A DNA stretch of 40,388 nucleotides, taken from a virus. Both the position numbers and the translations under genes were made by a program. This document shows positions 9,482 to 16,045 of this stretch, piece after piece; position 1 is the stretch's first letter, and every line of letters starts with the position of its first letter. The stretch is from positions 1 through 40,388 of the IMG/VR virus record IMGVR_UViG_3300042731_005376. One strand, written 5' to 3'. A model generated the notes under the pieces. It was not told where the DNA came from. It searched no databases and saw only the letters and a program-made list of their open reading frames with translations.

Positions 9482-10471
9482 TTAAAGAACGTATTTGATG
9501 ACTTCGATGCCTTTTTTCTTCGCGTCAAATACTAAAATGTTTACGAACATGGCATAAGCCGCATCACACAACATCATCGCCTTGCGGCTGGTGGTGGCGT
9601 GAGTGATTTTTTGTTTAAAGGGCACCTTGGGTACTTCGATCACGTCGTACTTATTGACATATTCATTTGCGATATGCTCTAAGAAATATCGCCGTTTATT
9701 GGCGATATGTTCATGGTGTTTTTGCAAGGTATAGCGGGCCGCTTTGCGACCACGTGACCCCTTTTGTTTACGGCTGAGGGATCGACTTAATCGCCGTAGC
9801 CGTTCAATCGATTTAAAGTAAAATTCAGGATGGGGGATTTCCCGTCCGTCGGTATCGCGAATAAAGACGTTATCTTCAAACCGGATACGGACCAGCCGTT
9901 TTCGGCGAGGGGGTTCATATTCCGGCAACGGTACTTCACAGCTAAAACAGACATACCAGCGGTTGCGATGTAACCGGATCGTTACGGTTTTGATTTGTCC
10001 CTCGATGGGCCGGTGAAGCTTCAATTTAAACCGGCCGCAATTATCAATATGCAGATATTTTCCGTCCAGCGTCCAGCCAAATGGCTTGTTTGCGACCCGG
10101 CCCAATTCAATGATCCGATGAATCCCCTTTTCGCGGGGCGGCCGGGCGTCGGGATCGGTTTTAATCAGGGCAAAAAAAGAACGATACGAGTCATGGAGTT
10201 TGGCGGTGACCGCCTGTAGAGCGAGGATGTTGACATGCTTCAATTCCGGATGTTTACGGCGGGAAACATGGTGATACTGTTTCCACTTATGGTTGATCGG
10301 CTTAACCGTAGGATCGGTTTTGGATGCCTCGTAGGATTCTTGTCGTTCGGCTAAAGCGTCATTCCAGACGTTTGCCATATCCACCATCCACCGAATCGCC
10401 GCTTCACGGGTCCTTCGGTTGCAATAGGCCCGGTACTTGTATGCAATCCGATATGTCGTGGCTTTTTTCAT
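9482..10471 (-). CDS. TnpB/Cas12f-like protein, predicted nuclease-dead (RNA-guided DNA-binding protein)
   Basis: A 329-aa protein. The N-terminal KKATTYRIAYKYRAYCNRRT and the central SIERLRRLSRSLSRKQKGSR, with KHHEHIANKRRYFLEHIANE, are hallmarks of TnpB. In active TnpB the RuvC-I motif is GIDxG. Here it is RIRFED (about residues 195-200), with Arg at the catalytic Asp. The RuvC-II region reads YDVIEVPKV instead of the usual IVxEDL. The protein stops at GIEVIKYVL, where TnpB normally continues into the zinc ribbon and third catalytic Asp. Dead TnpB-like repressors (TldR) are known to use guide RNAs to block transcription. A comparable role here, fed by the adjoining arrays, is inference. No TnpA was seen. 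Start: ATG at 10471 is preferred over an upstream TTG because of the promoter position. Confidence 0.8.
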   Translation of the reverse strand: MKKATTYRIAYKYRAYCNRRTREAAIRWMVDMANVWNDALAERQESYEASKTDPTVKPINHKWKQYHHVSRRKHPELKHVNILALQAVTAKLHDSYRSFFALIKTDPDARPPREKGIHRIIELGRVANKPFGWTLDGKYLHIDNCGRFKLKLHRPIEGQIKTVTIRLHRNRWYVCFSCEVPLPEYEPPRRKRLVRIRFEDNVFIRDTDGREIPHPEFYFKSIERLRRLSRSLSRKQKGSRGRKAARYTLQKHHEHIANKRRYFLEHIANEYVNKYDVIEVPKVPFKQKITHATTSRKAMMLCDAAYAMFVNILVFDAKKKGIEVIKYVL

Positions 10472-10477
10472 GACCGC

Positions 10478-10506
10478 AAAATACAATCGTCAGCAATTAT
10501 TGTCAA
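10478..10506 (-). promoter_or_regulatory. Promoter of the tnpB-like gene, apparently leaderless
   Basis: On the minus strand TTGACA (10506-10501), a 17-bp spacer and TATTTT (10483-10478) are followed after six bases by the ATG at 10471. Transcription would be expected to start at or next to the ATG. No Shine-Dalgarno sequence precedes it. The -35 overlaps a TTGTCAA half-site like those found in other control regions of this phage. Confidence 0.6.
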
Positions 10507-13399: not shown

Positions 13400-13506
13400 G
13401 TTTTCATTCTCATTTATTTTATGCAAAGTGAGAAAAAGTGAGAAAATAGATTTGCACTTTTTCTACTTGCATGTAATAAATGACATTCGTTGACAATGAT
13501 TGACAA
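13400..13506. promoter_or_regulatory. Lysogeny switch control region with GTGAGAA and TTGACAA sites
   Basis: Between the divergent repressor and excisionase-like genes lie ATTCTCAT (13409-13416), then two tandem copies of AAGTGAGAA about 10 bp apart (around 13425-13445), and two direct TTGACAA copies at 13490-13496 and 13500-13506. The GTGAGAA pattern recurs in three other control regions. For the rightward gene, TTAACA at 13535 and TATGTG near 13559 are possible promoter boxes. Operator function is inferred from position. Confidence 0.55.
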
Positions 13507-13578
13507 TGATCTACTCGACAACCAAATACAATCTTTAACAAGATACTGCAATTATTAGTATGTGTCAAGGATTTTGAT

Positions 13579-13842
13579 ATGCCGAAAAAGAAATCCCGTA
13601 AAACAGCTAAAACAGCCGTAGTCGAACAGGAACCTGATCTGCTGAATCGGCTACATACCGATTATTACACGACCGAAGAGGTCGCCAAGGCGGTTGGACG
13701 CAATCCAGAACAATGGTGTCGTATACGTCACAATTATATCACACGGTTTAAGTTACATGTCATCAAAGTGGGTCGCAATCTTTTTTACGAGAAACATTCA
13801 GCCAACCGCATGATCGAAGAGCTATTGAAAAACGGGGACTAA
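13579..13842 (+). CDS. Excisionase-like / MerR-type helix-turn-helix protein
   Basis: An 87-aa protein with a Lys-rich N-terminus (MPKKKSRKTAKTA) and a winged-helix DNA-binding domain of the HTH_17/Xis type (YYTTEEVAKAVGRNPEQWCR, about 31-50). It is divergent from the repressor, so it occupies the cro/xis position. It could be the recombination directionality factor for the integrase or a lytic regulator. A predicted terminator follows about 55 bp after its stop. AAGGA precedes the start. Confidence 0.6.
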   Translation: MPKKKSRKTAKTAVVEQEPDLLNRLHTDYYTTEEVAKAVGRNPEQWCRIRHNYITRFKLHVIKVGRNLFYEKHSANRMIEELLKNGD

Positions 13843-13856
13843 AAAACAGGATGTGT

Positions 13857-13943
13857 GCAAATCCGGCAGGGGTTGTCGAGACACCCTACGTTATCGCCGA
13901 GCAGGGGTTGACCGGATGCCTAAGCCTGCTCTCCTGTTCTTTT
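13857..13943 (+). ncRNA. Structured RNA element ending in a terminator-like hairpin
   Basis: The block holds two direct GCAGGGGTTG copies (13866 and 13901), each starting a stem. The second stem is GAGCAGG (13899-13905) with CCTGCTC (13925-13931), followed by TCCTGTTCTTTT, a plausible rho-independent terminator for the gene upstream. The loop carries GTTGACCGGATGCCTAAG, and GCAAATC lies at 13857. A related pair of motifs occurs in the capsid leader at 36208-36267, so this may be more than a terminator. Confidence 0.45.
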
Positions 13944-14070
13944 GCAAGTAAAGACGGTGTGTGTGGAGCAACGGTTTGCCGCGTACCTCAACGCGAGAAT
14001 TGGCCGGACAATTCGTTGCATATATAGATTAGATTACGGACTGAACTTGAAATTCAGGGTCCAAATTGAA

Positions 14071-14148
14071 ATCGAAAAATGTGGGTTCGACTCCCATCGC
14101 CCGCTTTTATTTCCATGCGGGCGTAGCTCAAGGGTAGAGCGTCGATCT
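14071..14148 (+). tRNA. Circularly permuted tRNA gene (3' half upstream of 5' half), tRNA-Gly-like body
   Basis: The 3' half comes first: anticodon-stem strand ATCGA (14071-14075), variable loop AAAAT, T-arm GTGGG-TTCGACT-CCCAT, acceptor strand CGCCCGC (14098-14104), then T as base 73. After a 12-nt linker the 5' half follows: acceptor strand GCGGGCG (14117-14123), TA, D-arm GCTC-AAGGGTA-GAGC, G, and anticodon-stem strand TCGAT (14142-14146), then CT. Acceptor (7/7) and anticodon (5/5) stems are perfectly complementary across the two halves. The anticodon lies at the broken ends and is not readable with certainty. ATTAGAT (14028) and ATCTAAT (14145) could pair the outer flanks. Alternative: leftovers of two tandem tRNA genes. 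Confidence 0.6.
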
Positions 14149-14323
14149 AATGGCTACCAGTGGCCTGAACTGGTGAGGAACTCCGATGATCCGAAACTTG
14201 TACATTGAATATCCCACTAATTGATGATCCGATTTTATTTCTTCCGATGAATAGAAATCCCAATGACCACGCTCCAACACCGTTTATTTTTTTTATAACT
14301 CATATATGAAAGGATTACGAATT

Positions 14324-14626
14324 ATGAAATTAGCCGAAGCATTGTTACGTCGCAAGGAACTGCAAGATCGTCTGAAACGTATTGATCCGGTTCGTCATGC
14401 TGACGTATTCACCACCAAAGTCAGCCGTATTAAAGTCACAGACTCCATTGACAATATTACCGCCGATGTCCCTAAGCTCGAACTGAATCAGGTGATGGCC
14501 GAATACGATCATTATGCTCGACAACTGCGATTAATCGACGCGGCCATTCAGCAAGCCAACTGGACAACTGAACTGTCCGTGCAGGGTGTCATGGACGATT
14601 ACAAAACGCCGGATAAATCCGCATGA
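14324..14626 (+). CDS. DIP1984/DUF6847-like (septicolysin-type) protein
   Basis: A 100-aa helical protein starting MKLAEALLRRKELQDRLKRI, the signature opening of the DIP1984/DUF6847 family, whose members are helical proteins of unknown function. GAAAGGATT sits before the ATG at 14324; an upstream in-frame ATG at 14306 overlaps that ribosome-binding site and is rejected. It begins the rightward early operon. Its stop overlaps the next start (ATGA). The leader is long, about 480 bp from the previous gene, and contains the structured RNA and the permuted tRNA. Confidence 0.65.
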   Translation: MKLAEALLRRKELQDRLKRIDPVRHADVFTTKVSRIKVTDSIDNITADVPKLELNQVMAEYDHYARQLRLIDAAIQQANWTTELSVQGVMDDYKTPDKSA

Positions 14627-14895
14627 TTATTAATATCGAACAGATGAAGGATATGCTCGCCAATGCCATTGATGATCGGGTATGTGCCCCGGTCCTTAAA
14701 ACCCGGGCCAAGTACCATTTCTGGCTTGATAAAAATACGCTCAACATCGGTTGTCATTGGGCCGGAACGTATGTTCCCCAAGATCATATTCAAATTGTGG
14801 CAACGATGATGTTTCATCCCGAAGACGGCTTAACGGTGAATCAATGGGAAGAGCTGGCTCAAAAGTTTCTCCCGTATTTTCAGTCGAGGAAATAA
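14623..14895 (+). CDS. Hypothetical early-operon protein
   Basis: A 90-aa protein whose start overlaps the previous stop, implying translational coupling. It has mixed alpha/beta composition with several His and Trp residues (KYHFWLDKNTLNIGCHWAGT). No signal, membrane segment or known motif was recognised. It lies directly before a Gp157-family gene in the replication operon, so a DNA-metabolism accessory role is possible but unproven. Confidence 0.5.
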   Translation: MIINIEQMKDMLANAIDDRVCAPVLKTRAKYHFWLDKNTLNIGCHWAGTYVPQDHIQIVATMMFHPEDGLTVNQWEELAQKFLPYFQSRK

Positions 14896-15778: not shown

Positions 15779-15832
15779 CCCGGAATGTTACCGGGTTCTC
15801 CACTAAGGCCGGGAGTTGATTGCCTCCCGGCC
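15779..15832 (+). promoter_or_regulatory. Two stem-loops in the csrA leader
   Basis: CCCGG (15779-15783) pairs with CCGGG (15791-15795). A perfect 9-bp stem GGCCGGGAG (15807-15815) pairs with CTCCCGGCC (15824-15832). No long T-run follows, so full termination is unlikely. CsrA proteins bind GGA in hairpin loops and near ribosome-binding sites. The downstream start site contains AAAGGA, so autoregulation is possible. Confidence 0.5.
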
Positions 15833-15853
15833 TGCTTATTGAAAGGATTCGAT

Positions 15854-16045
15854 ATGTTAGTTTTATCCCGTAATGTTGGTGAAAGTATCCGTATCGGCGA
15901 CCATATCAAAGTCACCATCGTGAGAGTACAAAGCGATAAACGTGTCCATTTAGGTATTGAAGCTCCACTCGATATTGACGTTCATCGAGAGGAAATCTAT
16001 CAGGACATAAAAGAAAGGGGGTGTCTCAATGATTGCAGGCATTGA
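15854..16045 (+). CDS. csrA: CsrA/RsmA translational regulator
   Basis: A 63-aa protein matching CsrA over its whole length: [20 protein letters not shown] at the start, GIEAP in the centre and [10 protein letters not shown] at the end. The RNA-binding Leu4-Ser5-Arg6 and the Arg of VHREE (about residue 44) are kept. CsrA dimers bind GGA motifs in mRNA leaders and change translation or stability. Here it sits between an SSB-like gene and a RuvC-like gene, in the early operon. Its ribosome-binding site GAAAGGA contains the target motif, as do the leaders of the genes at 14324, 12819 and 18023. It could act on host or phage messages. Confidence 0.92.

Follow-up and report, generated by a model that had tools for sequence, protein, structure and literature searches.

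Among described RNAs, the closest analogues of the phage RNA considered here are GOLLD (RF02032) and ROOL (RF03087). These are ornate phage- and prophage-encoded RNAs of unknown function, rich in pseudoknots, whose kissing loops build cages with a variable linker inside; GOLLD linkers sometimes carry phage tRNAs, and the GOLLD kissing loops are self-interacting (PMC12286853). The bacterial YrlA Y RNAs (RF02553) carry a tRNA-like domain that consists of a T arm, a hairpin-capped acceptor and a D arm in that order; DusA and TruB modify this domain, and PNPase is bound by it (PMC8394870). Circularly permuted tRNA genes are known from some algae and archaea, as a first-pass annotation of the DNA analyzed here had noted; a review counted 34 of them, in six algae and one archaeon, that mature through a circular intermediate dependent on BHB splicing (PMC3978253). 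In these genes, as at the present locus, the 3' half stands before the 5' half and a short linker joins the acceptor ends. The first-pass annotation knew of no established phage example, and searches of the open-licence literature likewise brought up no report of a permuted tRNA gene from a bacterium or a phage. In the precursor of two-piece tmRNA the acceptor ends are internal, and a large RNA replaces the anticodon arm.

The window, that is, the whole stretch of DNA analyzed here, comprises 40,388 nt of the virus record IMGVR_UViG_3300042731_005376 and holds a permuted cloverleaf on its + strand at 14071-14146 (Table 1). The first-pass annotation had described a tRNA 3' half preceding its 5' half, with four helices that close only in permuted order, and this geometry was confirmed by the sequence, the predicted fold and covariation, every helix it had named being present. 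The isolated module (77 nt) was predicted to fold into exactly the permuted cloverleaf (-27.3 kcal/mol), and one full permuted cloverleaf was found in the window compared to none in 300 windows simulated with its dinucleotide composition. The suggested pairing of the flanking ATTAGAT and ATCTAAT (14028-14034/14145-14151) appears in the single-sequence minimum-energy fold but competes with the 14142-14146 strand. Three further features had gone unremarked: an anticodon arm at 14041-14057, a surrounding RNA of approximately 13954-14283 and a neighboring gene for a DUF6847 protein. Considered together with its relatives, the feature is probably a tRNA-mimic module carried by a conserved noncoding RNA of phages, encoded next to a DUF6847 gene.

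Table 1. Coordinates of the RNA, its parts and its neighbor in the window, and of permuted modules at other loci.
Feature	Position	Strand	Basis or remark
Whole noncoding RNA, closed by P1	13954..14283	+	window-free model match 13957-14021; closing-stem geometry as in relatives
P1 5' strand, ACGGTGT	13954..13960	+	pairs with 14277-14283
P2 5' strand, TGGAGC	13964..13969	+	pairs with 14271-14276
H-type pseudoknot	13973..13995	+	covariation over 44 members
Hairpin C, GAATTG-GCCGGA-CAATTC	13997..14014	+	self-complementary loop (GGCC/CCGG)
Variable linker, GUUGC to 3' domain	14015..14176	+	locus comparison
Canonical anticodon arm, CTGAA-CTTGAAA-TTCAG, Ser-UGA-type loop	14041..14057	+	just 5' of permuted body
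Anticodon-stem equivalent, 5' strand ATCGA	14071..14075	+	5/5 with 14142-14146; covariation
T arm, GTGGG-TTCGACT-CCCAT	14081..14097	+	stem 14081-14085/14093-14097, 5/5, one G-U; covariation
Acceptor hairpin, CGCCCGC / 12-nt loop (14105-14116) / GCGGGCG	14098..14123	+	14098-14104 pairs with 14117-14123, 7/7; covariation
D arm, GCTC-AAGGGTA-GAGC	14126..14140	+	stem 14126-14129/14137-14140, 4/4; covariation
Anticodon-stem equivalent, 3' strand TCGAT	14142..14146	+	5/5 with 14071-14075; covariation
P7 hairpin, ACCAGT...ACTGGT	14156..14174	+	predicted fold; relatives' hairpin at equivalent place (by eye)
3' domain, CCGA-type repeats (AACTCCGATGATCCGA ... CAATGACCA)	14177..14270	+	consensus-structure search
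P2 3' strand, GCTCCA	14271..14276	+	pairs with 13964-13969
P1 3' strand, ACACCGT	14277..14283	+	pairs with 13954-13960; followed by T run
DUF6847 (PF20935) protein gene	14306..14626	+	constant neighbor of the RNA; possible partner
Permuted modules outside the family, one each	L093:1168, L120:2137, L118:11274, L016, L024, L109, L259, L261, L271		
Permuted modules outside the family, two each	L091, L045, L033, L034		

Fifteen permuted modules, all of them from phage contigs, were aligned. In this alignment 98.1% of the cells were paired, as compared to 72.1% in shuffled alignments and 36-49% when the structure was slid along the sequence, and the covariation score was 0.741 versus 0.207 for shuffled alignments, with none of 500 shuffles reaching any of these measures. 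Two-sided changes were observed at 17 of the 21 base pairs and in every arm, and RNAalifold recovered the same permuted structure from these modules without guidance. The T loop GTTCRANTC and the GG of the D loop were essentially invariant across permuted modules, such that the tRNA elbow is retained. The family members are metagenomic and partly related or redundant, such that all counts given here overstate their independence. The aligned sequences show that the inside-out tRNA structure is real and conserved across many phages, and that selection has kept the permuted form as it diverged. In several relatives the acceptor is capped by a loop of 3-5 nt (e.g., GAAA, GAGA, TAAA or GATT), shorter than the 12-nt loop of the window, and an acceptor closed in this way would have no free 3' end for charging.

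Hairpin-capped permuted modules of the order T, acceptor, D were also seen in other phage contigs outside the RNA family (Table 1), and are a building block that recurs among phage RNAs. Several lie inside tRNA arrays and are enclosed by a further outer stem, such as AGGTTACTT/AAGTAACCT of L093, and some of the caps are GNRA or UUCG. At L034:8971-9683 a permuted tRNA-like module follows a ROOL RNA within approximately 45 nt, and at L045:5852-6901 a GOLLD RNA locus has two such modules a few hundred bases downstream.

Relatives of the locus were gathered through proteins related to the product of the open reading frame at 14306-14626, which yielded at least 53 loci from viral contigs. In most of these the intergenic region adjoining the DUF6847 gene was homologous to positions 13950-14285 of the window; in total, more than 55 phage loci have the RNA adjoining a DUF6847 gene, and in the loci fetched via DUF6847 the two lie on the same strand. 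When the viral collection was scanned by motif alone, blind to DUF6847, at least nine contigs were returned; seven of these were already known as DUF6847 contigs, while L176 and L182 were new and have a DUF6847-like coding sequence just upstream. Cultured carriers include the Vibrio phages PS32B.1 and 1.264.O (Zobellviridae), in which the RNA core lies directly 3' of the DUF6847 gene and no permuted module is present. A covariance model (R1) built from 34 relatives, with the window excluded, matched the window at 13957-14021 (31.9 bits, E=8.4e-8; next best match in the window, E=0.3) and recognized 62 of 66 DUF6847/RNA loci at E<=0.5, held-out loci included, while none of 52 unrelated viral loci matched at E<=0.1. 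The helices P1 and P2, pseudoknot helix B, hairpin C and P7 all occur at the expected places in the window, and on these sequence comparisons the window belongs to the DUF6847-linked RNA family.

The family is apparently undescribed so far. No Rfam match was obtained in the window at the gathering score, no Rfam 15 family covers the RNA in the window or its relatives, and searches of the open-licence literature yielded neither a description of the RNA nor a report tying DUF6847 to an RNA. Among named phages, the locus gave no match by DNA similarity, and a blastn search with the RNA of one relative returned short chance matches only. A scan of genome contigs with the 3'-domain motif returned, among the matches listed, only coincidences in coding sequences (L183-L187, by eye). 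The DUF6847 protein has no PHROGs family, and its structure model consists of two helices at low confidence (mean pLDDT 68). No integrase relatives were found in the viral contigs.

In its order of arms the module matches the tRNA-like domain of YrlA. A phage Y RNA of the YrlA type, in which a basal stem would tether a Ro/Rsr ring protein, has to be weighed. The mimicry of D, T and acceptor arms is as published for YrlA (PMC8394870), and at relaxed thresholds the only strong Rfam hit is to YrlA, at 14052-14173 (31.1 bits, E=1.8e-4 in 1.3 kb). This score is, however, far below the gathering score of 69, and no TROVE (Ro/Rsr) match was found in the virus record, which was the only sequence searched and may be incomplete. 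In addition, the YrlA module stands on a basal stem for Ro/Rsr, whereas the module here is part of the linker in a different RNA, one with P1 and a pseudoknot, of which many members have no module. A YrlA-type RNA thus seems unlikely.

The first-pass annotation had read the locus as a permuted tRNA gene in a phage, and while the permuted order and all of the helices stand, the gene for a working tRNA does not follow from them. For an algal-type gene the ends would have to be joined and the acceptor end opened to give a working, tRNA-Gly-like product. The perfect permuted cloverleaf with consensus D and T loops is what such a gene would contain, a canonical anticodon arm lies close by, and the 12-nt acceptor linker of the window could be removed by RNase P and a 3' nuclease. 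Against this, the strands 14071-14075 and 14142-14146 run into the linker and the sole anticodon arm is a separate one, the acceptor is closed by short caps in many relatives, and the module sits inside a conserved larger RNA. Moreover, CCA is not encoded, the acceptor strand being followed by TTTT, and ARAGORN finds neither a tRNA nor a tmRNA in the window. Bacteria are not known to have a BHB splicing endonuclease. The known algal and archaeal cases need this enzyme and yield working tRNAs (PMC3978253), whereas here there is no anticodon loop and acceptors are often capped. We consider a true permuted tRNA gene decidedly improbable. The precursor of two-piece (permuted) tmRNA is similar in topology; unlike it, the module has a true D stem and no tag reading frame was identified, and Rfam gave no tmRNA match in the window. 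A permuted group I intron-exon arrangement was rejected, with no group I match in Rfam at E<=10 across 13500-14800.

The tRNA-mimic module is best considered within its surrounding RNA, which measures approximately 330 nt in the window and roughly 270-450 nt in relatives. Its closing helix P1 varies from 7 to 27 bp and differs in sequence among relatives, with P1 and P2 at a nearly constant spacing. The pseudoknot consists of helix A (GGT 13973-13975 with ACC 13985-13987), which at 3 bp is weak in the window, and helix B (CGCGT 13980-13984 with ACGCG 13991-13995). Across 44 members the three helices of the pseudoknot and hairpin C were 83.2% paired, compared to 60.3% in shuffled alignments and at most 55% when slid, and their covariation score of 0.629 versus 0.207 was reached by none of 500 shuffles. 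G-U pairs outnumber A-C mismatches in these helices by 40 to 20, a ratio of only 2:1, which favors an RNA on the + strand. In the 3' domain, by comparison of the relatives, no conserved helix or consensus structure was found; the repeats of this domain (TCCGAnTnnGAnaACA), in the window (14177-14270) and in relatives, are putative protein-binding sites, possibly for DUF6847. Directly upstream of the RNA, a GC-rich and apparently structured stretch (13845-13938) is closed by AACAGGA/TCCTGTT, and a similar element (GCAGGATATAGAC ... GTTGAACTCCTGC) occurs at the equivalent place in L122, L123, L138, L151 and L153. The window also encodes a CsrA-family translational regulator near the RNA (15785-16045; PF02599, E=1e-21) and, on the - strand, a TnpB/OrfB_IS605-type transposase gene (9482-10486) that might come with a guide RNA of its own.

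Hairpin C ends in a loop that is self-complementary in 43 of the 45 members, with ten different palindromes among them. Of 26 distinct loops, 24 are palindromic, as compared to a mean of 8.9 and a maximum of 18 for within-loop shuffles, and the two remaining loops become self-complementary once G-U pairs are allowed (by eye). The palindromes are often flanked by non-pairing bases, as in A-CCGG-A and U-GGCC-G. Conservation of the palindrome through ten different sequences implies a homodimeric (homotypic) kissing loop, and the RNA probably associates with other copies of itself and presents shapes resembling a tRNA. In some members hairpin C is a perfect inverted repeat, for which a DNA-level signal could also account. 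Such palindromes, together with 3'-domain repeats that form no helices, are what a DNA element such as a replication origin with iteron-like CCGA repeats would offer in place of an RNA. This reading we hold to be very improbable, given that the H-type pseudoknot covaries, G-U exceeds A-C in the helices, the DUF6847 gene lies on the same strand in the loci obtained through it, and tRNA genes are embedded in the region.

These embedded tRNAs occupy the linker, which spans approximately 70-270 nt from GUUGC to the 3' domain and contains, as alternatives, a normal-order tRNA, one or two permuted modules, or an anticodon-arm hairpin alone; the permuted module is optional in the family. ARAGORN identified a linker tRNA in 16 members (Ile, Gln, Asn, Arg, Ser, Leu, Thr and others), excluding L137 and L145, where its calls overlap permuted modules and were counted as permuted. 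In 14 of the 34 remaining members the linker contains a canonical anticodon arm of 5 bp whose 7-nt loop is of the U33 type, versus 1.0 expected from shuffles, and a 4-bp arm is present in 23 of the 34 (3.1 expected). The linker tRNAs of L133, L139 and L140 are closely alike in the same context and differ in anticodon (Asn GTT, Ile GAT and Arg TCT, respectively), a pattern suggestive of anticodon switching. The complete normal-order tRNAs at this site recall a caveat of the first-pass annotation, that relatives with full tRNA genes might expose the arrangement as a deletion, and a deletion within a tandem tRNA pair would indeed yield the 3'-half/5'-half order and may have been the first origin of the module, but a decaying remnant of this kind is hardly credible because the permuted form covaries, with 98% pairing over 15 modules and two-sided changes in every arm.

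As a tRNA-mimic module in a larger RNA, the feature invites comparison with GOLLD and ROOL, the former of which shares a variable linker able to carry a tRNA. GOLLD and ROOL exceed 600-800 nt compared to approximately 330 nt here, and the present RNA is linked to DUF6847 and carries permuted tRNA mimics. Their Rfam models gave no match in the window (gathering score), the locus (E<=10) or the relatives, and the same Rfam search finds ROOL in L034 and GOLLD in L045. Both oligomerize through kissing loops, for which the self-complementary loop of hairpin C is a candidate counterpart here. Two or more copies of the RNA would associate via the palindromic loop and display their linker modules to tRNA-recognizing proteins. 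With the elbow of D loop and T loop kept and the module anchored by its anticodon stem, tRNA-binding proteins would recognize it as a tRNA, although it would be unable to decode and, where capped, to be charged. Tentatively, the likeliest role of the RNA would be that of a scaffold or decoy by which tRNA-recognizing factors are held or titrated during infection, candidates being modifying or processing enzymes, PNPase and host tRNA-cleaving defenses. It is a more doubtful proposition that it represents a new self-assembling class of phage RNA, in which anticodon arms and uncharged tRNA mimics would trap host tRNA-cleaving defenses, tRNA-processing enzymes or ribosomes. If that were true, the mimics would come in normal or permuted topology, and the permuted cloverleaf would be the version that is unusable in translation.

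Altogether, these observations bring to light a phage RNA family that apparently has not been described before and is strongly supported by covariation. Like GOLLD, the RNA has a variable linker in which tRNAs are carried; like both GOLLD and ROOL, it seems built for self-association. A single linker site that holds a full tRNA, a permuted mimic or an anticodon arm alone provides natural snapshots, through which the question of why large phage RNAs carry pieces of tRNA becomes testable. Permuted cloverleafs are also shown to be a building block under selection in bacterial viruses, one that tRNA finders miss.
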